Origin: Ignavibacteriales bacterium
Lineage (GTDB): Bacteria > Bacteroidota > Ignavibacteria > Ignavibacteriales > Melioribacteraceae
Assembly (NCBI GenBank): GCA_021740915.1
Contig: JAIOYW010000021.1
Location: 1 to 61,752, forward strand
Direction: 5' to 3'
Length of the DNA stretch: 61,752 nt
The notes beneath the pieces were generated by a model. That model had not been told where the DNA came from, did not search any database, and was given only the letters and a program-made list of their open reading frames with translations. The stretch's first letter is position 1. Each line of letters starts with the position of its first letter. The translations under genes were made by a program, and so were the position numbers. Shown one piece after another: positions 652 to 21,384 of the stretch.

Positions 652-3600
652 CTATTTCAATAACATCATTTTCTTTGTTTTATTATAATTTGGAGTAATT
701 ATTTGATAGAAATATATACCTGATGCAACCCTTTCACTGAATTGAAATTCATGAAAACCTGCTTCTAATTCACGATCGACCAGAGTTAATATCTTTTCAC
801 CAACTGAATTATATATGTTCAATTTGACAGGTGCGGTTTCCGGTAATCCAAATTTTATAGTAGTAGAGGGGTTAAACGGATTCGGATAATTCTGCTCCAG
901 CACAAATTCGGTTGGTATTTCCAAAGAAGTAACATTGATTGAAGTAATAGAACTCTCGGAGATAGAGATTGATTTGCCATCTCTTACAATCAGATTGATT
1001 CCATTCAAAGGTGAGCTGATTTTCAGGTCAGTTCCTGTAACGGATATTCTTACCGGGTATGCTGCATCTTTGATAGTGACCACTGAACTGGTATTCGAAG
1101 TAGCAAATGAGTTATCATTATACCTGACGTCAAAAATACCAAGCGGAGGAAGAGGAGGCAGTTCATATGAACTTTTTGTCTCATCTACAATATAAAGAGT
1201 TTGAATGTTACCCTTTGCATCAGTAATCTCAATTTTGCTTTTTTCACCCTGAACAGAAAAGAGAGCATTAGTCGATTTTTTGCTGATAACCTGATTCAAA
1301 TTGATTACACCTGCCTGAGAAGCTTTAATCCAATAACCCTTTCCGGGCTGAAGTTCAGTCGCTGCCTGGTAACCGCTGTTGAATCCATAGAATTGAGATG
1401 CGATGATACCTGCAGGTACTGTTGTAAGATCAGCGACCAAAACACTCTGATTAAAAGGACCGATAATATTCCAACCCGCGTCAACGTTAATGCCGCCTGC
1501 CGGAACATCTCCCTGAACCGTTATCGATTCTTCGGATCCGTATTTTAACCAGTAGCCTTCGCCGTTAACTGCCTGGGTCACGGTTGTATAGCCATTATTG
1601 AAAGCATAAGCCGGAGAAATCGCGTTTTCGAATATTGATGCAATGCTCATATCCGAAGTCAATAAGGGGACAGAGATGATATTCCACCCGCCTGTTACTG
1701 AGATAATTGATGAGTTGCCTGTAACGGGCATTTTTTCATACGCATAAACCGCGCCTGTTCCACCGGCATGGCTTGCCCCTATTACGATTTTACCCCCTGA
1801 AACAGATACTGAAGTTCCAAATTGATAATTGCCTGACGCATCGGATGGTGTAATCTTCATGATTTCACCCCAGACATTTTCTCTTCCGGCATTTCGTTCA
1901 AATAAATAAGCAGCGCCGGCATATTCTCCGTTTTCATTTTCGTTGGGAGTTCCGACTAAAACGTAGTTTCCTGAAAGCGAGACTGATGTACCGAAAAAAA
2001 CATTCTCCTGAGCATCGGAAGCAGTGATCTTAGTTACTTCACCCCAATTATTTTCGCCTCCCTGATCACGGTAAAAGATGTATGCGGCTCCGGAATTAAA
2101 GGATTTACCAATGGCACCAATGACAGCATAATACCCGGAAAGAGAGACTGAATGACCGAAATAATCTCTTAATTGAGCATCAGAAGCGGTAATCTTTTTT
2201 ACTTCGCCCCAATTATTTTCTCCGCCTTGATTGCGGTAAAAGATGTATGCGCCTCCGTTAATATTGAAATTGCCTTCGGCACCAACAATAGCGTAATCTC
2301 CTGATATTGCAACAGAGACTCCAAAATTATGATCTCCCTGCAAATCGGAAGCGGTCATTTTTTCTACTTCACCCCAATTATTTTCTCCGCCTTGATTGCG
2401 GTAGAACAGATACGATGCTCCGGCATCAATAACTCCAGCATCCTCATGCGGGGCACCGACAATTAAGTAATCACCGGAAATAAATACTGAAAGACCAAAG
2501 TTCGCTCCTTCACCAGGCGTTGAAGCTGTCAGTTTTTTTACTTCGCCCCAGTTATTTTCACCCCCCTGATTACGGTAGAAAAGATATACTGCCCCGGCTC
2601 CAGCAGACCCTGCATTTTCATATGGCGCTCCGACAACAGCATAATCACCAGACAGAGATACCGAGTATCCGAATAATGCACCAGGTTGTTCATTGGAGGC
2701 AATAAGTATTTTTTGCTCGGTCCAATTATTATCTCTTCCGGAACTACGGGAAAACACGTATGCTGTTCCTACAAAACTTCCACCATCATCGTCATAAGGA
2801 TCCCCGAAAATAGCATTGTTACCCGAAATGGAAACCGAAGATCCAAATCCATCACCAGGCATTGCATTAGAAGCAGACAATTTTTGTATTTCCTGAAACT
2901 GGTAACCGGCGGTTGTATCAATATAATTAAAACCGTTAACCAAAGTATCTCTTAAACCACCGCTGGTTTCAACAATAATATCTATCATTCCTGTATTGCC
3001 TGCGGGTGCTTTGCAAATAATTTGAGCATCGCTCCAGTTTGTAAAATTAACAGCCGGAATACCGCCAAATAACACAGCACCCTGCAAATCACCAAAACTT
3101 GTACCTGAAATTGTTACTTCCGTACCACCATTACTGCTGCCGCTATTCGGGGAAACAGAAGAAATCGAGGGGTAAACAACCGGCAACGCCTGATTTACAA
3201 AAATATACGCAGCGCCTGCATTGCTGCCGCCTGCATCATGTTCAGGAGAACCAACAATTACATAGTCACCGGAAATAGAGACTGCTGATCCAAATTTATC
3301 AGCCCATTGTACATCGGAAGCTGTGATTTTAAGTATCTCACCCCAGTTTTCAGACCCACCGGTATTCCGATAATAAATATATGCTGCACCGTTGTCAAAT
3401 ATTGTGCCGTCTTCACCGGAAGCACCAACAACGATATAATCGCCTGAGATTGAGACCGAACCGCCAAAATAATCATTACCCTGAGCGTCGGAAGCAGTTA
3501 TTTTTTTAACCTCTCCCCAATTATTTACTCCACCTTTATGACGGGAATAAAGGTATGCAGCTCCGGCATAACTTCCACCGGCTGCCTCACCGAGTGCGCC

Positions 3601-6600
3601 AATTACAGCATATTCACCCGTTATGGAAACAGAACGGCCAAATAGATCTCCACTTTGTGCATCTGATGCTGCAAGTTTTTTAATCTGGCCCCAATTATTT
3701 ACTCCACCTTCATTGCGGTAAAATAGGTACGCTGCGCCAGCCTGATTTCCACCAGAACTTTCCCGAAAGGCTCCAACGACTGCGTATTCTCCGGAAAGCG
3801 AAACAGAAATACCAAAATTAGCATTTGACTGTGCATCAAAAGCTGTTATTTTTTTAACTTCACCCCAATTATTATCACCACCCTGATTACGGTAATAGAG
3901 GTACGCAGCTCCGGAATTGCTGCCGAATGTATCCTCACCATCGGCGGATACAATCAGGTAATCTCCCGAAAGCGAGACAGAAGCACCTAAGTTATCATCT
4001 GCCTGAGCATCAGAAGCTGTTATTTTTTTAACTTCACCCCAATTATTAACACCACCCTGATTGCGGTAATACAAGTATGCTGCCCCTGTGTTATTACCAC
4101 CTGCATCTTCATACGGGGATCCTACAACAGCAAAGTCACCGGAAATATGCACTGAGTTACCAAAATATGCGGCAAGTTGAGGAGAAGATGCTGTAAGTTT
4201 TTTAACCTGGGTCCACTCATTTTCCGTGTTCTGATTTCGTAAATACAGGTACGCCGCACCAACATCACCATTCTCATACGGAGCCCCTACTATTGCAGTA
4301 TTTCCAAAGACTGATATAGCGGCACCAAAGTTATCTCCTGCCTGCGCATCGGATGCGAGAACTTTTTGCACTTCCTCAAAGTAGTTCCCTGCAGTGGTTT
4401 CAATAAACTCAAATCCGTTAACCAGGGTATCTCCCGCTCCTTCGCTGTTTACAACGATTATATCGACAACTCCCGCCGACATAGGAGGTGTTCTGCAAAC
4501 TATTAAGGTATCTTTCCAGTTCGTAAAATTAAATGCCGGTACTCCGCCAAACAGAACCATTCCTTGAACATCAGCGAAATTCATACCCTTTATGGTTACC
4601 TCTGTACCACCTGAATGGCTGCCGGTATTTGGAGAGATCGAAGTAATTACAGGCGAGGCCCCCGGTAATGGTTCATTTCTAAAAATATACACAGCACCTG
4701 CATTAGTTCCGCCGGCATCCGCCCACTGGGCACCTACTAAAGCATAATCACCTGAAACTGATACTGAATAACCAAAGAAGCTGTTTGGCTGTGCATCGGA
4801 AGCTGTTAATTTATTCACTTCTGACCAGACTCCGTTTTCACCTTGTTTGTATATATACGCAGCTCCGGCATCATTGCCGCCGGCATCTTCCTTATAAACT
4901 CCCACAATAGCGTAATCACCCGAAATTGATACCGATGTACCAAATTCGTCACCTGCCTGTGCGTCTGATGCTGTAATTTTTGACACTTCAGACCAGACTC
5001 CGTTCTCATTCCGCTTAAATATATATGAAGCTCCGGCATCAGTACCGGCCGCATCTTCGTAAACAGCACTTGCAATTGCATAGTCACCTGAAATAGATAC
5101 CGAAGTACCTAAATTATCACCTGACTGAGCATCTGAGGCTGTAAGCATTGCAGTTTGGGTCCAGTTACCATCTGCTGCTCTCTGAAAGATATAAGCTGCG
5201 CCTGCATCAGAGCCTGCGCCTGCAACATCTTTCTTTGAAGCTCCCACGATCACATGATCTCCTGAAATTGCACCGGAACTTCCGAAGAAATCATTTGCCT
5301 GAGCTCCCGAAGCGGTCAGTTTAGTTACTTCAATCCAGTTGCCATTTACATCCGGTGTATAAACATATGCAGCTCCGGCATTTGAGCCTCCCGCATCTTC
5401 AAAAACAGAAGTCACCAATGCATAATTTCCCGAAATTGATACTTTGGCGCCAAATGCATCATCTGCCTGCGCATCTGAGGCTATAAGTTTATTTACTTCT
5501 GACCAGGTTCCGTTTTCGCTGCGTTTATATACGTATGCCGCACCGGCATTATTACCGCCGGTATCTTCGGTATATGCACCTACTATTGCATAATTGCCTG
5601 AAATAGAGACTGAGAAACCATAATTATCACCAGCCTCTAAGTCAGATGCAGTAAGTTTTGTAACCTGATTCCAGGTACCGTTCTGGTCTCTTTTATAAAT
5701 ATATGCCGCGCCTGCGTCACTGCCCGCGGCATCTTCGAGATGGGCACCTACAATTGCATCATCACCTGAAATTGATACGGAGAAACCGAATTCATCATCT
5801 CCCTGAGCATCCGCGGCAAGAAGTCTCTGTATTTCCTGGAACTCGTATCCCGAAGTGGTTTCAATATATTCGAAACCATTTACAAGGGTATCTCTTTTGC
5901 CCTGTTTGTCTTCAACTATTACATCAACTGATCCGGTAACGCCTGCGGGTGTTTTGCATACTATTTGTGTACTGCTCCAACTTGTTACATTAACTGATGG
6001 TACTCCGCCAATTAATACACTGCCCTTTACATCACCAAAATTTGCACCGGAAATTGTTACTTCAGTACCTCCTGATTGACTTCCGGAATTCGGGGTAATT
6101 GAAGCAATTGAAGGCAGAATTTCGGGTGGGGCCTGATTTCTGAACATATAAGCAGCTCCGGCATTATTTGCACCGGCATCTGCCCACTGTGCACCGACTA
6201 AAGCATAATCTCCGGATATTGCAACCGAGAAACCAAAGAAACTGCTTGCCTGCGCATCTGATGCAGTAAGCTTTTTCACTTCAGTCCAGTTACCGCCGGA
6301 CTGACGATTATACACATAAGCCGCACCGGCATCATTACCGGCAGCGTCTTCTTTGTAAACTCCTACAATGGCATAATCTCCCGAGATTGATACCGTCGAA
6401 CCAAATTCGTCACCTGCCTGCGCATCTGAAGCTGTAATTTTATCAACCTGCAACCAGGCACCATTCTCATTACGCTTAAATATATAAGCCGCGCCGGCAT
6501 TACTGCCTGCTGCATCTTCAAATACTGCACTGATAATAGCATATTCACCCGATATTGCCACCGAGCCGCCAAACTGATCGCCCGTTTCACCATCTGAAGC

Positions 6601-9600
6601 AGTAAGTTTTGCTGTCTGCGACCAATTGCCGGAAGCATCACGCTTAAAGATATAAGCAGCGCCTGCACTTGGTCCTAAAGTAAATTTAGTTGATGCACCT
6701 ACTATCAAATAATCGCCTGATATAGCAGCAGAACTGCCAAACTGATCACTTGCTGCAGGATCCGAAGCGGTCAGTTTATTTACTTCAGCCCAGTTGCCGC
6801 TTTCATCAGGTGTATAAACATATGCAGCTCCGGCATTTGTGCCTCCTGCATCTTCAAAAACTGAGGTCACCAATGCATAATTTCCCGAAATTGATACTTT
6901 GGCGCCAAATGCATCATCTGCCTGAGCATCTGAGGCTATAAGTTTAGTTGCCTGCGACCAGGTTCCGTTTTCGCTGCGTTTATATACGTATGCCGCACCT
7001 GCATTATTACCGCCAGTATCTTCAGTATATGCTCCAACTATTGCGTAATTGCCTGAAATGGAGACTGAGAAACCATAATTATCACCAGCCTCTGAGTCAG
7101 ATGCAGTAAGTTTTGTAACCTGATTCCAGATACCGTTCTGGTCTCTTTTATAAATATATGCCGCGCCTGCATCACTGCCGCCTGCATCTTCCAGATGGGC
7201 ACCTACAATTGCGTCATCACCTGAAATTGATACGGAGAAACCGAATTCATCATCTCCCTGAGCATCCGAGGCAAGAAGTCTTTGTATTTCCTTAAACTCG
7301 TATCCCGAGGTGGTTTCAATGTACTCAAAACCGTTTACAAGAGTATCCCTGTAACCTTCATCGTTTTGAACAATAATATCAACATTACCTTTTATACCGG
7401 CAGGAGTTGTACAAATAATTTCAGCGCTGTTCCAGCTGACAAAATTAACCGACGGCACACCGCCGAATAATACGGTTGATTTAGTATCCCCAAAATTCGT
7501 TCCGGAAATAGTAACTTCCGTACCGCCGGATTGACTGCCCGTGTTTGGTGTTATTGATATGATTTCGGGAATGTTAATCGCTATATATTCCATATTTTCA
7601 AATATGTAAACCGAACCAACATCATTCCAGCTCGGAGAATCCTTATCAGGGGCTCCAATTAAAGCGTAGTTACCTGAAATAGATACAGAGGTGCCAAATT
7701 TGTCGCCCGCTGTTCCGTCAGATGCCGTTATTTTATTAACTTCGCCCCAGTTATTAATGCCGCCTAAATTTCGATTGAAGAAATATGCTGAACCCGGATC
7801 CAATATAGTGGATGAATTGACCACAGAACCAACGACAGCATTATCCCCGGATAGGCTGACACTATAGCCAAATCGATAATTCGTCTGTGCGTCAGATGCA
7901 GTGAGTTTTTTAACTTCACCCCAATTATTGTCACCGCCGGCATTCCGGTAAAACATATATGCTGCACCCTGGTATGAACTTTTACCATAAGCACCGACAA
8001 CGAGATGATTTCCTGAGAGTGAAACCGTGCTGCCAAAAAAATCACCTGACTGAGCATCAGAATTAGTGATTTTTTTGACTTCACCCCAGTTATTATTGCC
8101 GCCCTGATCCCGGTTAAATATATATGCCGCGCCTGAACCGGTTCCTAAAGCTCCATTGGCACCTACTACGGCATAGCTGCCCGAGATGGTCACGGAACCA
8201 AACATTCCAATTGTTTGTGAGTCGGAACCAATGATCTTTTTAACTTCACCCCAATTATTTGCTCCTCCTTTGTCACGTTGATAAATATAGGCAGCACCTT
8301 TATAGTTGGATTCTGCATAGGAACCGACGATAGCATATTCATCTGAGATAGATACCGAATAACCAAATGCATCAGATGCCTGAGCGTCTGACGAAGTAAT
8401 TTTTTTAACTTCACCCCAGTTATTTTCGCCACCCTGATTACGATAAAAAATGTAAACAGCTCCTGCATTTGTTCCAGCATCATCATCTCCGGGGGCTGAA
8501 ACGATTGCATAGTCACCCCAAAGAGCTACTCTTACACCAAATTCATCATTTTGCTGAACACCAGTACCATTAATAATTTTAACCTGACCCCAATTATTTT
8601 CACCGCCCTGATTACGGTATAATACCGTAACTTCCTGATATAGCGTACTGGAGCTGGTTTCATTAAATGACCCCACGAGAGCATAATCACCGGAAACAGA
8701 AACATCGTAACCAAACTTATTTCCAGGAGCCTGATGGGATGTAAGCATTTTTTTAATTTCCTGGAACCTGTATCCTGCTGTTGTTTCAATGTATGTAAAA
8801 CCATTTATAAGGGTATCTTTCAATCCGTCGCTGTTTTCAACAACCACATCAACAGCTCCGGTAATGCCTGCAGGGGTTTTACATACTATCGTTGTTCCGT
8901 TCCAGCCTGATACAACAAGTGCCGGCACTCCTCCAAATAATATGTTGCCCTGCAAATCACCGAAATTTGTACCATTGAGCGTAACTTCCGTGCTGCCCGA
9001 CTGGCTGCCCGAGTTTGGTGCTATAGAGCTGATCTCCGGGTAATTGCCTGCGACAAACTCGTTCTTTGTGAAAATGTATGCAGCGCCAGCTTCCGTTCCG
9101 GCAATAGGATCATCTACACCATCTGCACCAACGAGCAGATAATCACCTGAGATTGCAGCTGAAAATCCAAAATACGCCGATTGCTGGGGATCAGAAGCTG
9201 TCAGTTTATTAATTTCGCCCCAGTTGTTATCGCCCCCCTGATTGCGGTAAAACACATAAGCTGCTCCGGCATCGGAAAGACCGGCATCTTCTCCATTAGC
9301 ACCAACAACGGCATAGTCGCCGGAGATAGAAACAGACTCGCCAAAGTAATCCAGTTCTTCTGCATCTGAAGCAGTAAGTTTTTTTACTTCGCCCCAGTTG
9401 TTATCGCCTCCCTGATTGCGGTAAAATACATAAGCCGCACCTGCATCATTTCCTAATGCATCATTGCTCAATGCCCCAACAATAGCATAATCACCGGAGA
9501 GGGACACTGAATTTCCAAAATTAGAATAATCTGAAACATCAGAAGCAGTAAGTTTTTTAACCTCACCCCAATTATCTGCCCCACCCTGATTGCGGTAAAA

Positions 9601-11832
9601 CACATAAGCCGCACCGGAGAATTGTCCATCACTCTTCGCTCCGATAACGGCATAATCGCCTGATATGACAACTGAGGACCCAAATAAAACACCTCCTACC
9701 GCGTCAGAAGCGGTAAGTTTTGCAACCTGTTGCCAGCCATTCAATCCACTGCCGCCAATACTTTTAAACAAATATGCGGCACCGGCATTATTTCCAAATT
9801 CATCTTCAAAGCTGGCGCCAACAATAGCATAATTACCTGAAATTGAGACGGATGATCCAAATATATCCCCTGCCTGAGCATCAAGAGGAGTAAGTTTTTG
9901 GATTTCGCCCCAGTTATCTGTACCACCCTGATTACGATAGAATAAATATGCTGCTCCTGCATAAGTCCCTCCGGTATTTTCTAACTCAGCGCCGACAATT
10001 GCAAAATCGCCGGAGATTGAGACGGCTGTTCCAAAATTATCTCCTGCCTGAGCATCGAATGAAGTAAGTTTTTTTACTTCACCCCAGTTATTAATACCTC
10101 CCTGAATGCGGTCAAATATATAAGCCGCACCGGCGTTAACCCCGGCCCCATTATTGTCTTCGGGAGCACCAATAATGGCAAAATCGCCGAAAATTGATAC
10201 AGATCTGCCAAATTTATCAGATTCCTGAGCATCAGAAGCAACTATTTTTTTTAATTCTTCAAACTGGTACCCTGCTGTTGTTTCATTATACTGAAAACCA
10301 TTTACAAGAGTATCTCTCAGACCATCGCTGTTTTCAACAATAACATCAACCAAACCTGCGGAACCTGCAGGAGTAGTAAAAATTATCTGAGTATCGTTCC
10401 AGCCCGCAGTTGAAAAAGCATTAGCACCTCCAATCAAAACAGTGCCCTGCGTACCACCAAAATTTGAACCATAGATGGTTACTTCGGTACCGCCGGAACT
10501 GCTGCCGTAATTCGGGCTGACGGATGTGATTACGGGATAGTTATCCGGCAAAGACTTCTGAAACATATAAGCCGCACCGGCATTGTTTCCGCCCGCATCT
10601 TCATCAGGAGCGCCTGCAATAACAAAATCACCTGAAACAGAAACCGAAGTGCCAAAATGATCCGATGCCTGTGCATCAGATGCACTGATTTTTGAAACTT
10701 CGCCCCAGTTGTCAGCTCCGCCCTGATTGCGGGAATAAACATAAGCTGCGCCGACATCTGATTTATAAGGTGAGCCGACAACGATATAATCACCGGAAAG
10801 AGAAACCGAAGTGCCGAATTCACTATTACCGGATGCATCAGAAGCAGATATTTTTTTTACCTCACCCCAGTTATCTGTGCCCCCGCTATTGCGGTAGTAA
10901 ACATACGCTGCGCCTGCATCAGTACCGGCGGCGTTATCCCTGCGTGCCCCTACAATTGCGAAACCAGCTTCAAGAGCGACTGAATAACCAAACTGTGCAA
11001 GGTCTGTTTGTCCGTGACCGTAAAGCGTTTTAATAAGTCCCCAGTTATTGCTCCCGCCTTCATTACGGTAGAAAACATAAGCAATTCCATTATCCGCAAG
11101 TGTGGTGTTGTGATAGGGAGCACCGACAAGAAGATAATCATCGGATATTGCACTTGCAAAACCAAAAAAGCCCTGGGTTTGCGGTGCCGGATTTGTAATT
11201 TTTTTTACCTGACCCCAGTTATCGGTTCCCCCTTCGTTGCGTTTAAAAATATAAACTGCCCCTGCACTGCTTCCACCCGTATCATCACCTGTGGCACCCA
11301 CAACGGCATATTCGCCTGAGATAGAAACCTTTCCAAAATAATGATCATATTGAGCATCGGAAGCAATAATTTTTTTAACCTGGCCCCAATTATTCTCTCC
11401 TCCCTGATTCCGGTAAAAAATATATGCCGCACCTCTGCCGGAACCATTAGGGGGATTATAACCATCACCTTGAGCACCGACAATTGCATAATCACCGGAG
11501 ATACTTACAGTACCGCCGAAAAAACTGAACGGCGCGCCATCGGAGGCAGTCAATTTTTTGACTTCGCCCCAGTTATTCGTGCCTCCCTGGTTGCGGTATA
11601 ATATATAAGCTGCGCCATTGTATCCCTGAATAAAATCGTCACCTGGTGACCCGACGATGGCAAAATCGCCCGAAACGGAGACCGAATTTCCAAACCTCAC
11701 TTTGGCTTGTGCATCAGAGGCGAGCATTTTTTTTATTTCCAGGAAATTATAATCCTGGGCGAACAGTACACTATTCGAAAAGTATATTCCAATGAATAAC
11801 AGTGCTAATACTGTATTTTGTAAACGGTTCAT
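652..11832 (-). CDS. Giant secreted FG-GAP / IPT-TIG multi-propeller protein with T9SS sorting domain
   Basis: A 3,726-residue exported surface or secreted protein, probably adhesive or structural; its ligand cannot be predicted. The ATG at 11832 is chosen because a GGAG lies just upstream and a signal peptide ending near LFAQ follows. The body has 49 FG-GAP-type repeats (about 55-60 residues, pattern SDAQxxDxFGxSVSISGDY) in seven blocks of exactly seven. Six IPT/TIG domains (PNxGSxSGGTEVTI) separate the blocks, near 10.4, 8.9, 7.45, 5.99, 4.5 and 3.0 kb. Seven FG-GAP repeats make one integrin-alpha-like propeller, so seven propellers are inferred. A tandem GWNxIS...GYWxK module (about 1300-1710) precedes the C-terminal sorting domain (QNYPNPFNPSTTIKF, ending KKMMLLK). 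Blocks 4 and 5 lack the RNQGGxNNWG linker found in the others. T9SS export is inferred from the sorting domain; no secretion machinery is encoded here. Confidence 0.93.
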   Translation of the reverse strand: MNRLQNTVLALLFIGIYFSNSVLFAQDYNFLEIKKMLASDAQAKVRFGNSVSVSGDFAIVGSPGDDFIQGYNGAAYILYRNQGGTNNWGEVKKLTASDGAPFSFFGGTVSISGDYAIVGAQGDGYNPPNGSGRGAAYIFYRNQGGENNWGQVKKIIASDAQYDHYFGKVSISGEYAVVGATGDDTGGSSAGAVYIFKRNEGGTDNWGQVKKITNPAPQTQGFFGFASAISDDYLLVGAPYHNTTLADNGIAYVFYRNEGGSNNWGLIKTLYGHGQTDLAQFGYSVALEAGFAIVGARRDNAAGTDAGAAYVYYRNSGGTDNWGEVKKISASDASGNSEFGTSVSLSGDYIVVGSPYKSDVGAAYVYSRNQGGADNWGEVSKISASDAQASDHFGTSVSVSGDFVIAGAPDEDAGGNNAGAAYMFQKSLPDNYPVITSVSPNYGSSSGGTEVTIYGSNFGGTQGTVLIGGANAFSTAGWNDTQIIFTTPAGSAGLVDVIVENSDGLRDTLVNGFQYNETTAGYQFEELKKIVASDAQESDKFGRSVSIFGDFAIIGAPEDNNGAGVNAGAAYIFDRIQGGINNWGEVKKLTSFDAQAGDNFGTAVSISGDFAIVGAELENTGGTYAGAAYLFYRNQGGTDNWGEIQKLTPLDAQAGDIFGSSVSISGNYAIVGASFEDEFGNNAGAAYLFKSIGGSGLNGWQQVAKLTASDAVGGVLFGSSVVISGDYAVIGAKSDGQFSGAAYVFYRNQGGADNWGEVKKLTASDVSDYSNFGNSVSLSGDYAIVGALSNDALGNDAGAAYVFYRNQGGDNNWGEVKKLTASDAEELDYFGESVSISGDYAVVGANGEDAGLSDAGAAYVFYRNQGGDNNWGEINKLTASDPQQSAYFGFSAAISGDYLLVGADGVDDPIAGTEAGAAYIFTKNEFVAGNYPEISSIAPNSGSQSGSTEVTLNGTNFGDLQGNILFGGVPALVVSGWNGTTIVCKTPAGITGAVDVVVENSDGLKDTLINGFTYIETTAGYRFQEIKKMLTSHQAPGNKFGYDVSVSGDYALVGSFNETSSSTLYQEVTVLYRNQGGENNWGQVKIINGTGVQQNDEFGVRVALWGDYAIVSAPGDDDAGTNAGAVYIFYRNQGGENNWGEVKKITSSDAQASDAFGYSVSISDEYAIVGSYAESNYKGAAYIYQRDKGGANNWGEVKKIIGSDSQTIGMFGSVTISGSYAVVGANGALGTGSGAAYIFNRDQGGNNNWGEVKKITNSDAQSGDFFGSTVSLSGNHLVVGAYGKSSYQGAAYMFYRNAGGDNNWGEVKKLTASDAQTNYRFGYSVSLSGDNAVVGSVVNSSTILDPGSAYFFNRNLGGINNWGEVNKITASDGTAGDKFGTSVSISGNYALIGAPDKDSPSWNDVGSVYIFENMEYIAINIPEIISITPNTGSQSGGTEVTISGTNFGDTKSTVLFGGVPSVNFVSWNSAEIICTTPAGIKGNVDIIVQNDEGYRDTLVNGFEYIETTSGYEFKEIQRLLASDAQGDDEFGFSVSISGDDAIVGAHLEDAGGSDAGAAYIYKRDQNGIWNQVTKLTASDSEAGDNYGFSVSISGNYAIVGAYTEDTGGNNAGAAYVYKRSENGTWSQATKLIASDAQADDAFGAKVSISGNYALVTSVFEDAGGTNAGAAYVYTPDESGNWAEVNKLTASDPAASDQFGSSAAISGDYLIVGASTKFTLGPSAGAAYIFKRDASGNWSQTAKLTASDGETGDQFGGSVAISGEYAIISAVFEDAAGSNAGAAYIFKRNENGAWLQVDKITASDAQAGDEFGSTVSISGDYAIVGVYKEDAAGNDAGAAYVYNRQSGGNWTEVKKLTASDAQASSFFGFSVAISGDYALVGAQWADAGANNAGAAYMFRNQAPPEILPSIASITPNSGSQSGGTEVTISGANFGDVKGSVLIGGVPSVNVTSWSSTQIVCKTPAGVTGSVDVIVEDKQGKRDTLVNGFEYIETTSGYEFQEIQRLLAADAQGDDEFGFSVSISGDDAIVGAHLEDAAGSDAGAAYIYKRDQNGTWNQVTKLTASDLEAGDNYGFSVSISGNYAIVGAYTEDTGGNNAGAAYVYKRSENGTWSEVNKLIASDAQADDAFGAKVSISGNYALVTSVFEDAGGSNAGAAYVYTPDVNGNWIEVTKLTASGAQANDFFGSSGAISGDHVIVGASKKDVAGAGSDAGAAYIFQRAADGNWTQTAMLTASDAQSGDNLGTSVSISGDYAIASAVYEDAAGTDAGASYIFKRNENGVWSEVSKITASDAQAGDEFGTSVSISGDYAIVGVYKEDAGGNDAGAAYIYKQGENGVWSEVNKLTASDAQPNSFFGYSVSVSGDYALVGAQWADAGGTNAGAVYIFRNEPLPGASPVITSISPNTGSHSGGTEVTIKGMNFADVQGMVLFGGVPAFNFTNWKDTLIVCRTPPMSAGVVDIIVVNSEGAGDTLVNGFEFIETTAGNYFEEVQKVLASDAQAGDNFGAAISVFGNTAIVGAPYENGDVGAAYLYLRNQNTENEWTQVKKLTASSPQLAAYFGNSVHISGDFAVVGSPYEDAGGNNTGAAYLYYRNQGGVNNWGEVKKITASDAQADDNLGASVSLSGDYLIVSADGEDTFGSNSGAAYLYYRNQGGDNNWGEVKKITAFDAQSNANFGISVSLSGEYAVVGAFRESSGGNQAGAAYLFYRNEGGVNNWGQIKKLAASDAQSGDLFGRSVSITGEYAVIGALGEAAGGSYAGAAYLYSRHKGGVNNWGEVKKITASDAQGNDYFGGSVSISGDYIVVGASGEDGTIFDNGAAYIYYRNTGGSENWGEILKITASDVQWADKFGSAVSISGDYVIVGSPEHDAGGSNAGAAYIFVNQALPVVYPSISSVSPNSGSSNGGTEVTISGTSFGDLQGAVLFGGIPAVNFTNWSDAQIICKAPAGNTGMIDIIVETSGGLRDTLVNGFNYIDTTAGYQFQEIQKLSASNAMPGDGFGSSVSISGNNAIFGDPYDDDGGSFVGTAYVFSRSSGRDNNWTEQKILIASNEQPGALFGYSVSLSGDYAVVGAPYENAGSAGAGAVYLFYRNQGGENNWGEVKKLTASTPGEGANFGLSVFISGDYLIVGAPHEDAGVIDAGASYLFYRNQGGENNWGEVEKMTASDLQGDHNFGVSVAISGDYAIVGAEGNFNINGGAYIFYRNQGGENNWGEVKKITASDAQLRDYFGHSVSLSGYYAVIGAIGKSFNSGAAYIFYRDQGGENNWGEVTKITASDAQENVFFGTSVSLSGNYVLVGTPNENENGEYAGAAYLFERNAGRENVWGEIMKITPSDASGNYQFGTSVSVSGGKIVIGASHAGGTGAVYAYEKMPVTGNSSIISVTGGWNIISVPLLTSDMSIASIFENAISPAYAFNNGYTTVTQAVNGEGYWLKYGSEESITVQGDVPAGGINVDAGWNIIGPFNQSVLVADLTTVPAGIIASQFYGFNSGYQAATELQPGKGYWIKASQAGVINLNQVISKKSTNALFSVQGEKSKIEITDAKGNIQTLYIVDETKSSYELPPLPPLGIFDVRYNDNSFATSNTSSVVTIKDAAYPVRISVTGTDLKISSPLNGINLIVRDGKSISISESSITSINVTSLEIPTEFVLEQNYPNPFNPSTTIKFGLPETAPVKLNIYNSVGEKILTLVDRELEAGFHEFQFSERVASGIYFYQIITPNYNKTKKMMLLK
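4396..7315 (-). repeat. Tandem duplication of one propeller + TIG unit inside the giant gene
   Basis: The DNA for propeller 4 plus its TIG domain and for propeller 5 plus its TIG domain is closely similar, offset by 1,455 bp (485 codons). For example, the segment beginning at 5521 matches that at 6976 with scattered third-position changes. These two units also share the short KRxxNGxW blade linker. This is the youngest-looking duplication in the gene. Confidence 0.75.
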
Positions 11833-12730
11833 AAAAACTCCAAAATATTTGTGATGAGAGTTTGATTTTGACCGAATTGAATTTTTTGGAAGGCACACGA
11901 AGTAAAAATTAAATCCTAAATCAATTTAAATAAGATATGATGTCCTGTCAAGTATTTTGGTCGATTTATTTTTTTATAAATATTAAAATGTTCTCTATCA
12001 TTTTTTAAAATATCCTCAGATGAAAATAATTATGTAAATCCTTGTAATTGAATGCGTCAAACATATGATAACATCACATTTACCTGAAATGCATCTTTAG
12101 TTACAAATCCCCTGTATTGTGGCGGATCACGTTGTATTAACTGGTAACATGCTGTTTAGAGGAAAGATGAAAGAAGAAGAATGTTTTAAAGAAATAAAAT
12201 CATTCGCAGACCCGGACCTGACTTTTTTTTTGATTTAATATTTCTATAAAATAGGATATTTAGTCTGCTTTTCAGCTGATACATTTACCTGAAATTTTCC
12301 ATAAAAGCAGAGAAAAATTAAGCAGCCTTATCACCTGAAGATTAAATATTATCCATGGAATAATGCAGAATTACCAATATAAGCTGCTAAATGTGTACTC
12401 TTCCATTAATTCAATTTTCGGTTGTCCGACTTTAATTAATTTGTAATATTTCTTATTCGGGCAAGAGTTTGAACGGCTGCATACAGATTTATGACTTTGG
12501 AAAATTATTCCGGGAAAACAGAGTGTAAACAATCCGGCTGGATTTAGAGGGAGTTTTTTGCTTTCAGTTTGAGCTGGATTTAAATTCGGAGATGTTACAA
12601 GACGTTAGGAGGGGGAAGAGACATAAGGCTCCGGCTGAAGGCATCAACTTTCATATGCAGATCAATCGTATAAAACTAAAAAGGCTGCCCCCTTTTGGGA
12701 GACAGCCTTTAGAGGAGCTATGAAGAATTT
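11833..12730. other. AT-rich intergenic region, about 900 bp, no gene seen
   Basis: This lies between two minus-strand T9SS cargo genes. It should hold the promoter of the giant gene (right of 11832) and holds the terminator of the upstream gene (12680-12710). No RNA gene, hairpin-family repeat or convincing open frame is seen. I cannot place a promoter with confidence. Confidence 0.5.
12680..12710 (-). terminator. Rho-independent terminator of the SdrD_B/anchor-A gene
   Basis: On the minus strand, AAAGGCTGTCTCCC and its near-complement GGGGGCAGCCTTT form a stem around an AAAA loop, followed by TTTTAG. It sits 20 bp past the stop codon of the gene ending at 12731. Confidence 0.85.
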
Positions 12731-15700
12731 TTACTTGAGAAGCATCATCTTTTTGGTGATTGAAACGTTCTTTCCAGCAAACCTGTAAATATATACACCT
12801 GATGAAAGTCCGCTTGCATCGAATGTGAAAGTATATGTACCAGGTGTGAACTGATCATTTGCAAGAACTCTTACTTCCTGACCGAGAATATTATATATTG
12901 TCAGTGAATAAATTCCATCAGCAGGAATACTGAACTGAATCCTGGTTGTCGGGTTGAATGGATTAGGATAGTTCTGAGCTAATTCGAATTCTGTCGGAAT
13001 TTCTGTGATTTCGGTTACCAAACCGGTGACAAGATCCTGTTTGAACAGTTTTCCGTCCCTTGTACCTGCATAGATCATTCCGTCGTTTCCGTTATACATT
13101 ACTGAGCTTACACCGTAACCGCCCATACCGTATGGCTGCCAGTTGAAGGTTTTGTTGGTGAAGTTTATCATATAAACTCCGCCTGCCCATGTACTGACAT
13201 ATACATTATCCGAAGGATCAACCGAGACAGAATAAACGAACGGAGCGTTTAATCCGGCATTAAGATTCTGCCAGGTATTTCCGAGATCGAATGATGCATA
13301 AACACCACCGCCATAAGTCGCTGCTATCAGTTTATCATCTGAGGTAACATCAAGCGCCCAGATATGATCGTAGCCGACATTCAGACGTGTCCAGGAATTA
13401 GGTTCATATTTGTAAACTCCGCCGCCCATAGTGCCTGCATAAAGGTTACCCTGAGAATCTGCAGTAAGAGCATGAACAGCAAGTGTGGTAAGGCCGTCAT
13501 TCATTGAAAGTAAAGTGTCTGTACCGAAATTATATCTGTAAACTCCCAGGCCCCAGGTGCCAACATAAAGCTTATTACCTACTTTTGCCAAAGCCCTTAC
13601 GTCTGTTCCGGCAAGTCTCTGAGTCCAGGTAGTCTGTGCATTATTCGATCTGAAAAGACCCTGCTCGGTGCCGATAAATACTTTACCGTCATCCTGAACA
13701 ATGATATCCCAGATCCAGCCTACATTCATTCCCTCATTAATAAGGGTCCTTTCGTTATTCGGATTGATTTTGTAAACATTTCCGCCTACTGTACCGATAT
13801 AACTGTTTCCATAAATATCATAAGTCATTGACCAGACCATTTCGCCGGGCTCAAAGTTACCAACAAGCTGCCAGTTATTATTCTGACCGTTACCATTTCC
13901 ATTTCCATTACCCGGATCGTTTGAACTGACCGTCAAGCTTACAGAAGAGGAATTGTTCGCAGCATTAACGTCATCCTGATCAACATGAATAAGTGCAGCA
14001 GTATTAACAACACCCTGATCAACCGGAATATTTCCGACGAAAGGTGAGTTGTTGAACTGAGCCTGTCCCGTTACGGATTTGGCGATCATCTGACCGTTCT
14101 GCTGTCCTGAAATAAAATGAACATGTGCTTTCGGCGCAAGGATAGAACCTTCAACAGCAATGCTGAATATCTGAACATCTGTTGCATCAACGAAGTTATA
14201 AATAACCTGCTGCCTCGAAGTGCCCAGAACCTGCAGTCCGCCTGACCATGTCAGGTTGTTGCCGTAAAGATTCACTACTGCAACCGATCCGTTAGGAGCG
14301 CTTACAATTTTGGTATGAGTTGTATTAAAATCTGTATCACTTACGTTAAATACGTTGATTATCGGATCCGTTCCGATTAGGTTCAGCTGACCTTCCGTAA
14401 CTGTTACGGAGCCATTTCCCTGCAGAGCGGCAAGCTGAGATGAAAGAGAATTAGCCTGTATTTCAGCAGCTTCAAAATCAATAGGATTGGCTTTGAGAAT
14501 ATCGCCGTCCACATGGTATGGATTGACGCTTATACTATCGCCATAAATGACGTTGCCATAAATTCTTCCGGTAACAAAATTGAGGTAACCGCCTACAATC
14601 AGAACATCCTCGTATTGATTGCCGTGAACGATTTTATCGCCTACGCTATAGTTCGAAAGGTAAACATTTCCGCCTACCGCCATTTTACCTTCGGTATCTG
14701 AAGAAGGCTGTGAAAGGCTGTCAAAAACAAAAACGTTATAAGGAGCCGCAATTCCGAGATCAACAAGGGTTGCGTTTGCAAAATCAACATCCACTGTTGT
14801 TGTAATAGTAAGAGTTGCACTTGCGCCGGCAGCCAAAGTGCCGATGTTCCAAATGCCTGTGGCGTCGTTATAATTTGCTGAAGATGAAGACACATAAATA
14901 AGACTTGCGGGCAGAATATCTCCCACTCTTACGTTTGTGGCTTCGGAGTTACCGATATTAGTAGCAGTAATTGTAAATGTAACTGTTGCGCCATCCTGAA
15001 CATTCAGACTTGAAGCTGTTTTAACAACCTGTATATCTACCTCTCCCACGGGTGTTAAGAATATACCTGCATCCCAACTGTTATCAGTTTCACCAGGATC
15101 AAGAACGGTGCAGACAGTGTATCCCGTAGCGGGGGAAACATCTGAATCAAGTGCATCGTCGCCTGAATTCTGCGAGGTGAAAGAATAACCGAGAGGCAGT
15201 GTGAATTTCAGCTTATATTCGCCGGGCACTATGTCGATAAATCCATAGATACCTGAAGCATCGGTCGCGGTCATTGCAAGGAATTGATTATTGCATGTGA
15301 ATAATTCCACGATTACATTATTAACTCCCGGCTCGCCATTATCCTGGATGCCGTTCATATTTACGTCGTTCCATACTTTATTACCGATAGATGCTTTCAG
15401 CGCCGGGGCAATGAATACAATACCGGCATCCCAGCTCATATCGTTCTCGCCGGGTACTAATGTCGTAACTGCAGTGTAACCGGTTGCAGGATTAACATCG
15501 GAATCAACATTATCATTGTTGCCTGCATCCTGAGTTGTGAAATTATAATTTTCCGGCAGTGTGAATTTCACTTTATAATCTCCCGGAGTAAGATTATCGA
15601 ATAAATAAGCACCGTTGGCGCCTGTTGTGGTTGTTCCCTGAAGCTGGTTAAAACCGTTATAAAGTTCAACCGTAACATCGGCAACACCGGATTCGCCATT

Positions 15701-16687
15701 GTCCTGAATACCGTCATTATTTGTATCGTTCCATACAAAGTTTCCGATGGAAGCTACATTTGGCACAAAACCGGCATCCCATGAAAGGTCATTTTCTCCG
15801 TTGGATAATTGGGTGCATACTGTCTTACCGGTTGTCTGGTCAGCGTCGGAATCAACGTCATTGTTATTTCCGGCATCTTTGACAGTAAAAGAATAACCGT
15901 TCGGGGCAACAAACTGCGTCTTAAAATCACCAGGAGTAAGACCGGTAAAGGAATACTCACCGTTTGCATTGGTAGTGGTAGTTGCAATCTGATTATTATT
16001 ACAATCGAGTAGATTAACGACTACGCCCTGTAAACCGCGCTCGCCATTATCCTGAATACCATTTGCGTTTTCATCTTCCCATACTTTGTTTCCGATGGAT
16101 GCCAACTGAACCTGATCGCAGGTAAGATCGCCGGCATTGGTATTGCCTTCGTGGAAATTAAGATTGATATCATCAGCGCCGCCGGTGATATCGGATATAC
16201 TGTAACCGTTCAGCGGACCGCCAAACAAAGCAGCTTGAGCAAAAGCCATAAATTCGTTGACAGTCATGCCATCGAAAATTCCACCGTCAAAAATCAGGTT
16301 GCCAAGGGGAACGGGGTTTGTCCGTGTAACACCCGCGGCATCCATGGCTACGTTTATAGTCATCGCAACAATCTGCGAGGCAAAATTTCCGAGTTTGTTT
16401 GTAGGATTGACTATGTTTCCAGACAGGATACTCGAACCTCCTCCTGCTGAAAAATCCCACACCGCCTGAGCGCTGGTAAAAGTAAGCGAGCCATTTGGTC
16501 CGCTGATTACCACACCATTCGGGAAAACCGCATTAAAATTAGCGGCAAGCACCTGTGCCTGGGATGAATTTGATGAACCGAGCCATCCTCCCTGTGAATA
16601 AGTTGCGTAGCCGCTTAGATCACAATTCTGGGCATGCAGGGTAGCTGCAAAGAACAGAATCGCAAACAATCTGGCTAAATTATTCAT
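12731..16687 (-). CDS. T9SS cargo protein: SdrD_B x3, DUF11, choice-of-anchor A, beta-propeller
   Basis: A 1,318-residue exported protein, probably a surface adhesin or matrix component. The ATG at 16687 follows a GGAG and starts a signal peptide ending near LHAQ. Domain order: an unrecognised N-terminal domain; three SdrD_B-like domains, each opening ASIGNxVWxDxNxxGIQDNGE (Ca-binding-type acidic loop); one DUF11 domain (VVKTASSLNVQDGATVTF); a choice-of-anchor A domain (NVFVFDSLSQPSSDTEGKMAVGG); a Gly/Asn-rich linker; a propeller of GTxGGGVYK-type blades; and a T9SS sorting domain (QNYPNPFNPTTRIQF, ending KKMMLLK). The neighbour ending at 17293 is a paralogue from DUF11 onward but has a different head. 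Domain names are family recognition; the adhesive role is inference. Confidence 0.9.
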   Translation of the reverse strand: MNNLARLFAILFFAATLHAQNCDLSGYATYSQGGWLGSSNSSQAQVLAANFNAVFPNGVVISGPNGSLTFTSAQAVWDFSAGGGSSILSGNIVNPTNKLGNFASQIVAMTINVAMDAAGVTRTNPVPLGNLIFDGGIFDGMTVNEFMAFAQAALFGGPLNGYSISDITGGADDINLNFHEGNTNAGDLTCDQVQLASIGNKVWEDENANGIQDNGERGLQGVVVNLLDCNNNQIATTTTNANGEYSFTGLTPGDFKTQFVAPNGYSFTVKDAGNNNDVDSDADQTTGKTVCTQLSNGENDLSWDAGFVPNVASIGNFVWNDTNNDGIQDNGESGVADVTVELYNGFNQLQGTTTTGANGAYLFDNLTPGDYKVKFTLPENYNFTTQDAGNNDNVDSDVNPATGYTAVTTLVPGENDMSWDAGIVFIAPALKASIGNKVWNDVNMNGIQDNGEPGVNNVIVELFTCNNQFLAMTATDASGIYGFIDIVPGEYKLKFTLPLGYSFTSQNSGDDALDSDVSPATGYTVCTVLDPGETDNSWDAGIFLTPVGEVDIQVVKTASSLNVQDGATVTFTITATNIGNSEATNVRVGDILPASLIYVSSSSANYNDATGIWNIGTLAAGASATLTITTTVDVDFANATLVDLGIAAPYNVFVFDSLSQPSSDTEGKMAVGGNVYLSNYSVGDKIVHGNQYEDVLIVGGYLNFVTGRIYGNVIYGDSISVNPYHVDGDILKANPIDFEAAEIQANSLSSQLAALQGNGSVTVTEGQLNLIGTDPIINVFNVSDTDFNTTHTKIVSAPNGSVAVVNLYGNNLTWSGGLQVLGTSRQQVIYNFVDATDVQIFSIAVEGSILAPKAHVHFISGQQNGQMIAKSVTGQAQFNNSPFVGNIPVDQGVVNTAALIHVDQDDVNAANNSSSVSLTVSSNDPGNGNGNGNGQNNNWQLVGNFEPGEMVWSMTYDIYGNSYIGTVGGNVYKINPNNERTLINEGMNVGWIWDIIVQDDGKVFIGTEQGLFRSNNAQTTWTQRLAGTDVRALAKVGNKLYVGTWGLGVYRYNFGTDTLLSMNDGLTTLAVHALTADSQGNLYAGTMGGGVYKYEPNSWTRLNVGYDHIWALDVTSDDKLIAATYGGGVYASFDLGNTWQNLNAGLNAPFVYSVSVDPSDNVYVSTWAGGVYMINFTNKTFNWQPYGMGGYGVSSVMYNGNDGMIYAGTRDGKLFKQDLVTGLVTEITEIPTEFELAQNYPNPFNPTTRIQFSIPADGIYSLTIYNILGQEVRVLANDQFTPGTYTFTFDASGLSSGVYIYRFAGKNVSITKKMMLLK

Positions 16688-17292
16688 AATAACTCCATTT
16701 ATTAAAATTTTAACGCGTCCGCTGTCAAAAAAGGATTTTGGACTCATCCCTAAATTAGATCACTCACCTTTGTTTTCGGAAATATTTCGATGAAAGGACG
16801 TATTTCCCCGATGAATATTTCATAACGGACGTTTAATGAGATAAGGAGAGCGATAGCGGACAATTATATATATATAATATATGTCATAGAAATTCTGTAA
16901 ACAAGTAATAAGCTAAATAATTAGTAATAAATACAGGTAAATTTTACCAATTATAAGAAATATTTTAAATTATTTCACTTCAGGCAGTAATAACGCGCAG
17001 AGTCAGCCCCGTTCTGTTCATTCATTATTATGTTTAAACTTAGAGTACAGCCGACTGATATATACTTGTTAAATAAGTTTAAGCAGGCGGGTTATTTCTT
17101 CTTTTGCAAATAAATATCCGATAGATGAATCATCGGATACTCTCCGGAACCCCTGTGTCAATTCTGTCCTGGTTAGTATAATTGTCAGGGATTATAAATG
17201 TTATTATCAGCGGGCTAATTATGTATCGGGAAAAAAGCGAAAAAAAAAGCTGCCCTTTGGGGGCAGCTTTTCTAAAGAGGAATAAGGAAGAA
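16688..17292. other. Intergenic region, about 600 bp
   Basis: It separates the two paralogous T9SS cargo genes. It contains an alternating TA tract near 16866-16880, AT-rich sequence likely to include the promoter of the gene starting at 16687, and the terminator at 17246-17272. No gene or repeat-family hairpin is seen. Confidence 0.5.
17246..17272 (-). terminator. Rho-independent terminator of the thioester/anchor-A gene
   Basis: On the minus strand the stem AAGCTGCC(CCC)/GGGCAGCTT with an AAA loop is followed by a run of eight T. It is 20 bp past the stop codon at 17293. Shape and sequence resemble the terminator at 12680-12710. Confidence 0.88.
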
Positions 17293-20200
17293 TTATTTAA
17301 GCAGCATAAGTTTTCTGACGCTGGAGAAATTACCTGCTTCGATACGATAGAGGTAAACTCCGCTTGAAAGCTGTGATGCATCAAAGTTAACATTATAAAC
17401 ACCGGCACTCTGATTTCTGTCAACCAGAACAGCTACTTCGCGTCCGAGAAGATCGAATACCCTGATGCTTACTCTGGAATCTTCAGCAATTGAATACCTG
17501 ATCGTAGTCGTCGGATTGAACGGATTAGGATAGTTCTGATCAAGAGAGAATGTTTTTACTTCACCCGGATTATTATCGATTGAAGTAACAAGGTCGGCAA
17601 CGTATAAAGTGCCGTCACCGGTAGCGGCATAAATCTTGTTTTGCTTGGAATCAACAAAGATTGTGCTGACTTCGATACCGTTCATACCAAGATTAGCCCA
17701 TGCCATATCGAGACCGGCAGATTTTGGTATTGCAGTGCTTACGTAAACGCCGCTCATCCAGGTTGAAGTGTAAACATTGTTTGCACCGTCAATGCGGATT
17801 GCATAAACATAATTGTTACCGAGATTACCAGTAACGTTTGACCATGTGGTTCCGTCTGCTGAGAAATAAACACCGCCGCCATAAGTTCCGGCATAAAGTT
17901 TATCATTATTGGTAACTGCAAGTGTCCAGACGTGATCATATCCGACCGGCTGCCTGTCCCATGCTGAAGAACCAGTATTATACCTGTAAACACCGCCGCC
18001 GAAAGTACCCGCATAGAGTGTTGAATTCGAAGTCATGGCAAGAGCATGAACAGCAGTGAAAATCATTCCGTCATTCATTGCATTCCAGGTAGCGCCGCCG
18101 TCAATCGATTTGTAAACGCCGAATCCCCATGTACCTGCATACATAATGTCATCATTCTGCGGATCGATAACAAGGGCTCTTACGTCTTTACCGGTAAGAG
18201 TTGTGGCAGTCCATGTAACACCATTATCAACTGATTTGAAAAGACCGTTTTCGCATCCGGAGAAAAGATCGCCGGTTGTTTTCTGGGCAAATGTCCAGAC
18301 ATAAGCGCCAAACATTGCGCTGTTGATCTGAGTCCAGGTCAAGCCATTATCAACTGAGCGTAAAACTGCTCCGCCCCAGGTGCCTGCAACGAGTTCATTA
18401 TTATTATCTTCAATTATTGTCCAGATGAACTGGTTTGTCGGTAAAGTGCCGGCAAGCTGCCACTGAACTGTCGGGTTGCCGCCATTATTCGGATTTGGGA
18501 TAACCTGTACCGCGATAACCTGATCGTCAAGGTTATTGGCAGTATTCGGGTCATACTGATCAAGAGCAATAATTTCGGCTGCATTAGGTATATAAGGATC
18601 GATCGGTACGTTTCCGATAAATGGTTTGTGATTGAACTGTCCCATTCCTTCAAGGAATTTGCACATCATCTGACCATTCTGCACACCGCTGATGAAATTA
18701 ACACGTGCGCGCGGAGCGAGAATAGAACCTGTTACATCGATATTACTGATTGTAAGATCGGTAGCCTGGTAAAAATTATATAACACATTTGTGTAATCTG
18801 TGCCGTAAACGAAGAAACCGCCTGACCAGTTAATAACTTTCCTGTTAACATTTACGAGAACAACTGAACCGTTCGGTACTGTAATAGTTACGGTGGTAGC
18901 AGCATCGAGATCATTTCCATCAACGAAGAATGTATTCAGGAAAGGATCAGTACCTGTAAGCGTAAGTGTGTGTCCCCATTCAAAAACGGTTGTGCCGTTT
19001 ACTGTATAAGCTTTTAAAGTATTCGAAAGACCCTGCAGATAAGTCTGTGTAGCGGCAAAATCAAGAACTGTATCTTTTCTGAGAGTACCATCGCTTATGC
19101 TGACTGCATTTTCATTAAAATCTTTGAATCTGCCATAAACAACGTTGCCATTATAAACAGCGCCCGAGGTATATGTGATTTTCCTTCCCACAACGAGAAC
19201 GTCATCGGCACCGTGCGAGTTCGGAAGCTGATCGCCGACACTGTAGTTGCTTAATGTCAGATTTCTGCCGACTGCCAGTTTACCCTGAGTATCAGAGGAA
19301 GGCGCAGTATAATCTCTGTAAACAAAGACGTTGTAATCGGCAGCATCACCAAGATCGAACGGTGCGGCATTAAGAATACCGTAATCCATTTCAACAGTGA
19401 TGATAAGCGATTTTGAACCGCCTGCAGGTACTGTGCCTACAGTCCAGATACCGGTATTCGCATCATAATCAGGAGCAGGAACTGCCGACTGGAATACCAT
19501 TCCCAAAGGAAGGATATCAGATACGAGAACTCCGGTGGCATTATAAGCGCTTGGGTTAGTGACTGTAATAGTAAAGTTTACAATATCGCCGTCAACCGGA
19601 TTAGTAACATCAGCAATTTTCTGAATTCCAAGATCGATATCCGGCACCCAGTTAAAAGCGGAATTTACTTCTTTTGTGCCCTGTTCCGGGGTAGCAAGTA
19701 CTAATTTCTGGTATCCGCCGGAATTTGCCTGATGATAGAATCTTGTACCATGAGGAATTGTAACCTCGGCAGATGCGGTGACTATCGAATTAAGATCGAC
19801 ACCCGGTGTCAGTGTTATCGGGTCGGTAACGCCGTTGGCATTTGTGACCACTGATAAAGTGCTGAGAGTGGCATCGCCTGTGGCTGATAAAGTGACAGTG
19901 ATGTTTGGCACCGGACTATTGTCCCAGTCATAGGCTTCAATAACAAATTCGCCTGCAACACCCTGAGCAAGTGTAGAGCTTACAGGAACAATTTCGAGTG
20001 TCTTAACCGGAGAAGTCTGCCCGGCATTTAATGCTGCATCATCAGCAATTGCCTGTGCACGATCCCTTACGGTTCCGTTAGAAATTGTGTTTATATCAAG
20101 TCCGTCGCTGTAATGCCAGATGGCGCACTGCACGGCTGCGGCTTCTGTATTTGTCGGAAGCCCGCCCGGATATGGAAGTGCAACATGCGGGAAATAATTA

Positions 20201-20563: not shown

Positions 20564-21384
20564 AATTATATATTACAATAAAATCGTGATTTTAATCATA
20601 ATTAAGTTTTTTTTACGTGTAAATTTTACTTGATTTTTTTTGAAATCGGGAATTAAAAAGCAAATGCTTTATAATAGATATTAATTATTAAGCTATTGCT
20701 TTCCAATAAAATTTTCTTTCATAAAAATTCTTCAAATTATACATTACAAAAACTCCTTAAATATGATAACTTTTGCCAGCTTTTACTGACTAACAAAAAC
20801 ATTTGCAGAATAATTCAAATATTTTGTATCTGATACCCAGATCCATTCATAACCAGCCTCCTTGTATTTTTTAAGTAATTAATATTGTCCAGGAGAGCAG
20901 CCCGGTTTTTCCCGAATACTAAATAAACCAGAATACCGGAGCAAAGAAAAATATTGTCAAAAAACATAAGATTTTATTGAGTTAATCTTCATGTGACAAA
21001 ATATATTAATATTATGCTCAATGTGGGAATTTTCGATGAAATTACAGTTTTCCCCGATGAAAACCCTTGTAAGCCAGTTAAAGCAATGCGCGATAACAAG
21101 TAAAAATTACCGGAATGTTGCTTTGGAATCAGATGATAAAAAGTCATTCAGGAATCAGCTTCAATGTGAAAAGTCTTGCAGATCGCAAAAGTCGAAAGAT
21201 TCATTAAATTCTTTGCTAACCGCTAATGATTCTTTGTTATGCATTCAACGTCCGGCTTAAAATGCGATTCCGCTCCTGATCCGTGCTTCCGGTATTAAAA
21301 ATCCATGAAAAAATTGATATCTTGATAAACTTTTCACTATTTTCTTTTCCTAATATTTCCCTCAAAAAATCGGAGTCCAAACTG

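Follow-up and report, generated by a model that had tools for sequence, protein, structure and literature searches.

The gene at 652–11832 on the reverse strand of the window (the whole stretch of 61,752 nucleotides analysed here, from contig JAIOYW010000021.1 of an Ignavibacteriales bacterium) is assigned with high confidence, from its sequence and from structural models, to a secreted protein in which seven closed FG-GAP_2 propellers of seven blades each form a chain, with six TIG domains as spacers. The parts of this protein are known and what is new is how many rings it has, so that it can be described as an extreme form of FG-GAP_2 propeller protein. Seven propellers stand in one chain here, versus three at most in any of 145 homologous open reading frames (ORFs) with regular blade numbers. 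The unusual feature is the length of the chain, and the constant number of seven blades per ring is not special to this protein.

Gene, blades and rings

The reading frame of the ORF (652–11898, reverse strand; named P0001) is open across 3,748 codons. The start is the ATG at 11832 (residue 23 of P0001), which has GGAG just 5' of it, and the stop codon ends at 652, giving a product of 3,726 amino acids (P0001 residues 23–3748). Right after this ATG there is a hydrophobic stretch that resembles a signal peptide as judged by eye (11755–11832, residues 23–48). A Pfam search of the protein gave 49 stretches of FG-GAP_2 (PF14312; E = 0, 2258.7 bits against a cut-off of 23), six stretches of IPT/TIG (PF01833; E = 4.2e-90, 296.3 bits against a cut-off of 20.9), all of which lie between the blocks, and one Por_Secre_tail. 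When all six frames of the genome were searched, 50 FG-GAP_2 matches were obtained; 49 fell within this gene, and the remaining one is in an 845-aa frame on a different contig.

Cutting the protein at the anchor motif gave 49 repeats in seven blocks of exactly seven, with a block period of 485–499 aa (1,455–1,497 bp). The step from blade to blade is 54–60 aa within blocks and 148–152 aa over each TIG domain. A narrower motif found 48 of the 49 blades, since one blade of block 3 was missed and left a single step of 110 aa, while the wider motif and Pfam both gave 49. These results agree with the original prediction of a 7 × 7 FG-GAP string in which six IPT/TIG domains separate the blocks at a period of about 1.46–1.50 kb. 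The prediction had been obtained by counting the motif SDAQxxDxFG; the total of seven per block was right, but the literal string is missing from many blades.

All features of the gene are on the reverse strand. The propellers, each of seven blades, are located at 10543–11748 (propeller 1), 9046–10266 (propeller 2), 7576–8769 (propeller 3), 6121–7299 (propeller 4), 4660–5844 (propeller 5), 3178–4383 (propeller 6) and 1699–2901 (propeller 7, with no TIG behind it). All seven were delimited by Pfam and the anchor cut, with the models as additional evidence for propellers 1, 2 and 6 and the propeller tree for propellers 4 and 5, which are sisters. The TIG domains, found by Pfam and by a TIG profile, are at 10279–10542 (TIG 1), 8782–9045 (TIG 2), 7312–7575 (TIG 3), 5857–6120 (TIG 4), 4396–4659 (TIG 5) and 2914–3177 (TIG 6, which is also in the block-6 model). 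The region from propeller 7 to the sorting tail (889–1698) has no Pfam family at E 0.01, and the tail itself, a type A sorting domain of the type IX secretion system (T9SS), occupies 664–888 (Por_Secre_tail in Pfam, TIGR04183 in NCBIfam). The identity of the other blocks to block 6 is 54–58%.

The alignment of the blocks bears on how each ring would be closed. Each block opens with a strand of the form xFxEIQK, equivalent to the WGEVKK strand that starts the later blades, and the seventh blade passes into the TIG domain without a subsequent WGEVKK strand. By strand count every block is thus complete, its own N-terminal strand being the 28th. Models cover three of the seven propellers (blocks 1, 2 and 6). 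Block 6 was modelled by AlphaFold together with its TIG domain (alignment of 62 sequences; pLDDT 91.4, pTM 0.84). The model has a propeller of 28 strands, in which one N-terminal strand (residues 2–8) is followed by six four-stranded sets and a final three-stranded one, and the confidence of its TIG part is mixed (46–83 by tens). Compared by VIA, the propeller models of blocks 1, 2 and 6 matched integrin alpha heads with Z of 37.5–41.7; for block 6 Z was 38.0–41.7 among the 50 matches listed, with an rmsd of mostly 2.5–3.0 over about 350–361 residues, spanning model residues 1 to at least 400. The identity to integrin alpha heads in the structural alignments is about 17–21%. Foldseek likewise gave integrin alpha5 as the best match of the block-6 model. 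Furthermore, a search of the PDB at E 0.01 with a profile of 62 propellers returned integrin alpha chains only (12 distinct sequences, best E 8.1e-8), and the single protein as query returned only the IPT domains of plexin and MET (six sequences).

A second model, of block 1, TIG 1 and propeller 2 together (899 residues, 12 sequences), reached a pLDDT of 81.5 and a pTM of 0.52; its TIG domain has low pLDDT, and the relative placement of the two rings is not fixed by the model. Residues 1–400 and 494–899 each align separately to integrin heads by VIA, and because each matches on its own, propellers 1 and 2 are modelled as rings that are not fused. For the model of block 1 with its TIG domain some VIA alignments extend beyond the propeller and reach the domain behind it (1–465 onto 3v4v_C 2–534, rmsd 8.7). 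Among the Foldseek matches of the two-propeller model there is also Elp2, a two-propeller protein (6qk7_B, rmsd 30.9). Each block is therefore predicted to form a closed ring like an integrin alpha head, whose N-terminal strand completes the last blade. The proposal that seven closed propellers are linked by one Ig-like (TIG) domain each is borne out by the strand count in all blocks and by the models in three, in which the rings are predicted to be separate and closed, neither open nor fused.

Two other readings of the repeat string were weighed. The 49 blades could instead wind into an open superhelix, swap between rings, or close into larger rings that span the blocks, and the borders of rings are indeed not always marked, as some homologues (L019, L049, L070, L078 and L089) have an unbroken run of fourteen blades without any linker, which may represent two consecutive rings or another arrangement. 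In the present protein, however, every block is delimited by a TIG domain and by its own extra N-terminal strand, and the 899-residue model, which was free to fuse, yields two separate integrin-like rings, so that this arrangement appears very improbable. It could also be argued that the number of repeats was inflated or mis-joined in the assembly, as this is a draft genome in 35 pieces and blocks 4 and 5 have about 0.58 kb in common at 84–100% DNA identity. Against this, the reading frame is open throughout and the remaining pairs of blocks, at 55–63% DNA identity, are too divergent to be copies made by mis-assembly. Only the pair 4/5 could be affected, which would give six or eight propellers, and we consider such an error extremely improbable.

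Blade number and chain length among homologues

Blades were counted with one profile in three sets of homologues, from named genomes (481 confirmed places, of which the best 80 were used), from 20 hand-picked regions of host relatives and from IMG/VR contigs (the best 80 of 136 loci). As these loci are the best-scoring ones, distant relatives are under-sampled in the census. Among 177 distinct ORFs with at least four repeats, 16 were dropped whose repeats run off the contig, and 161 were counted. All blade runs are multiples of seven in 145 of the 161 (84 of 88 in the named genomes, 15 of 22 in the host relatives and 46 of 51 on the IMG/VR contigs). Among these 145 regular ORFs, which come from many phyla and include archaea, 117 have one propeller, 23 have two and five have three. 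Outside the 161, the plasmid records covered (three out of eight) carry 7+7, 7 and 7 blades, respectively. One plasmid gene, from Sulfurimonas aquatica (L214, 11017–17640), is 2,208 codons long and carries two propellers of seven blades each at the C terminus; it is annotated as an Ig-like domain-containing protein and adjoins genes for a transposase and a recombinase. On several IMG/VR contigs (L162, L167, L168 and L170) FG-GAP_2 multi-propeller genes stand side by side, for example three adjacent ORFs of 21 blades each in L170 (6186–17966).

At the set threshold, 16 of the 161 ORFs are irregular, and 14 of these were covered by a recount at a permissive threshold (L038 was taken in place of its near copy L039, and L132 3523–5001 and L140 were left out). 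Five ORFs then became sevens (L038, L127, two in L148, and L198), and L026 and L059 proved to be frame breaks, with blades continuing past the ORF. L050, L124, L130 and L152 remain divergent or ambiguous. The clear repeats stay at five in L132 (763–3456), six in L137 (1466–5500) and six in L129 (3258–5168), and 'seven without exception' was rejected for this reason. These short counts could possibly come from assembly collapse, because some blades in L132 and L137 are nearly identical. Homologues with irregular repeat numbers, which the original prediction had named as evidence against itself, thus do occur and are rare.

Seven is the closure number of the FG-GAP_2 family wherever it was found. 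Since nearly all relatives, including those with a single propeller, have seven, the constancy among the blocks reflects ring closure and is no special evidence here; the argument that a constant count indicates selection on whole propellers is not supported in this form.

With respect to the length of the chain, a profile was run against genomes of the class (245) and of the phylum (395), with the best six or three candidates scored per genome. No other matching frame among these exceeded 2,378 aa, while the window gene appeared as a frame of 3,757 aa. With a profile of the window TIG domains, a TIG beside a propeller was found in the three sets and the three plasmid loci only in L034, from an archaeal metagenome-assembled genome, where one propeller is followed by one TIG, the unit that is repeated in the window protein. 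Moreover, no Pfam TIG was found in 13 further homologues scanned, mostly multi-propeller ones. TIG linkers therefore seem rare among the FG-GAP_2 homologues.

The FG-GAP_2 propeller proteins of bacteria and archaea share with the window protein the repeat family and the seven blades per ring, and several of them (L049, L067 and L078) also have a T9SS tail at the C terminus; the regular ones counted differ in having one to three propellers in place of seven. According to Chouhan et al. (2011, PMC3192720), bacterial integrin-type propellers have 7 or 14 FG-GAP repeats, and entries from Rhodobacterales show two sets in tandem. Seven repeats per ring are common to those propellers and ours, but theirs have the integrin-type Ca2+ motif in each repeat, whereas D-x-[DN]-x-[DN]-G is absent from the window protein, which has seven sets versus two. 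Highly repetitive propellers of up to 47 consecutive blades, with FG-GAP/integrin members among them, are described in a second paper (Pereira and Lupas 2022, PMC9218822). The blades in the 47-blade case are nearly identical and uninterrupted, and form an unclear number of rings, in contrast to the 49 diverged blades of the window protein, which are split into seven rings by TIG domains. A search of the literature gave no account of more than two FG-GAP propellers in one chain, nor of a propeller-TIG chain.

Duplication and exchange between blocks

At the protein level, identity is 81% between propellers 4 and 5, versus 45–57% for all other pairs. The high DNA identity of these two runs from the end of the preceding TIG to just past blade 3, and it is 51–82% elsewhere in the two blocks. 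On the block-4 side this conversion-like tract covers the end of TIG 3, blades 1–3 and the very beginning of blade 4 (6766–7350, reverse strand; P0001 residues 1517–1711), and on the block-5 side it lies at 5311–5895 (reverse strand), with an approximate end set by the 485-residue offset. Between the two blocks dS is 0.20 and dN 0.03 in blades 1–3 (dN/dS about 0.14), and 1.65 and 0.17 in blades 5–7 (dN/dS about 0.10), blade 4 being excluded due to an indel. Because dS steps between blades 1–3 and 5–7, the sequences suggest a recent in-register conversion or crossover laid over an older duplication. As dN/dS is low on both sides of the step, both propellers would have been kept working. The tract is in register and the blade count is unaffected; this pair of blocks, with its low dN/dS, provides better evidence for the propeller as a unit than the constant count.

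A trace of blade position is also present in the other blocks. The protein identity between blades of different blocks is 0.525 at the same position versus 0.484 at other positions (0.521 versus 0.490 without blocks 4 and 5), and none of 2,000 shuffles or cyclic shifts was as high in any of three block sets. As support for duplication of whole propellers this signal is weak, because the same pattern would follow from position-specific constraint, above all on the first and the last blade, and because at the DNA level the best match is at the same position in another block for only 18 of the 49 blades, with blocks 4 and 5 accounting for 13 of these. The proposal that blade position is preserved across all blocks was rejected on these grounds. 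In a tree of 72 propeller rows the seven blocks did not form one group and required two changes, with one change in none of 200 bootstrap trees. They were likewise split in a 26-row tree, where the AU test did not reject one clade (p 0.3), the seven-block clade having been put to the test after the first tree was seen. Thus, the trees neither show nor exclude a single origin of all seven blocks, and growth purely by internal duplication is not supported by them, because the seven blocks were not recovered together. The chain presumably grew through duplication of propeller-TIG units, and later exchanges between blocks in register would have let each ring keep its seven blades.

Export and putative role at the cell surface

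The C-terminal sorting domain scores 36.2 bits with TIGR04183 (cut-off 23). SprA is encoded in the same genome (1,015 bits against a cut-off of 200), and at least 150 T9SS tails are present (150 of 205 candidates were scored, and all matched). The protein thus combines a sorting domain above the cut-off with a translocon in the genome, which are the marks of type A cargo of the T9SS, and judging from these sequence features we regard its export by this system as likely, with good confidence. It would leave through the SprA/Sov translocon, and the C-terminal tail would keep it on or close to the surface. Two same-strand genes upstream (12731–16747 and 17293–20526) encode T9SS-tailed choice-of-anchor-A proteins with DUF11-type (B_ant_repeat) repeats, which are adhesin-like; the first has an SdrD-like segment (207 bits, far under the model cut-off of 2,500). 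These neighbours probably belong to the same exported surface set. A third T9SS-tailed protein is encoded further on, on the opposite strand (21283–24174).

Some other elements of the window were recorded. An intergenic repeat with a short palindrome is present at 1–110 and 389–475; the copy at 1–110 has 14 matches in the genome, several of them intergenic-looking and three more on the same contig. A second intergenic region (41513–41665) holds a 53-bp tandem repeat of 2.9 copies with 74% matches. In addition, a gene at 33057–34706 (reverse strand) encodes a Vsr mismatch endonuclease domain (residues 2–74) fused to a C5 cytosine methylase (236–546), and the adjoining gene at 31927–33060 (reverse strand) encodes an NgoFVII-type restriction enzyme C-terminal domain, which points to a restriction-modification locus.

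In metazoans, propellers of this kind form the head of adhesion receptors. The integrin alpha head is the closest solved fold, and in integrin the propeller is followed by an Ig-like domain (the thigh) as it is by TIG here. The window protein is not an integrin, given the low identity in structural alignment and the lack of the Ca2+ motif: the integrin-type motif D.[DN].[DN]G occurs zero times in the 3,748 residues, and Pfam FG-GAP (PF01839) is not among the seven families at E 0.01, a search in which the HMMER filters may drop weak matches. Across the 49 blades, the entropy is near 0 in the FG, G and Y columns and reaches about 3 bits or more in the GG-NNW turn, behind VGA and at the positions flanking FG. 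Our best guess is a multivalent adhesin or receptor, because the gene stands in a cluster for exported surface proteins, its propellers resemble integrin heads and the variability is concentrated in loops. The rings of the protein may line up away from the cell and serve as binding platforms, whose many weak contacts to a polymer, a matrix or another cell would add up.

A secreted structural or matrix protein, such as a sheath, a fibre or an S-layer-like layer, would use the propellers as stable bricks without specific ligands. The low charge variety of the repeats, which are rich in G, A, S, V and N, and their regular period would suit such a function, and the sorting tail indicates export only. 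The variable columns are loops, however, a pattern more in keeping with divergent surfaces than with identical bricks, even if drift would look alike, and we take the structural function to be rather unlikely. As inferred from the domains and the neighbouring genes, the role of adhesin or receptor itself stands at slightly better than an even chance. Sequence and models taken together, the whole explanation, a T9SS-exported chain of seven propellers acting as a multivalent surface adhesin or receptor, is moderately probable. For a receptor, it is conceivable, if doubtful, that the rings diversify by exchange of blade sets in register (for example, blades 1–3 of rings 4 and 5). Ligand preference could then shift while the number seven is conserved.

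The protein has the longest chain of FG-GAP_2 propellers among the homologues counted. If its export is true, it shows how large a string of folded domains a T9SS tail can carry. For the family, the closure of a ring by seven blades had been a structural remark, and the census of homologues makes it a counted rule that has few candidate exceptions. The present protein, in which seven rings of diverged blades are each held at seven, is a clean natural test of the control of blade number.
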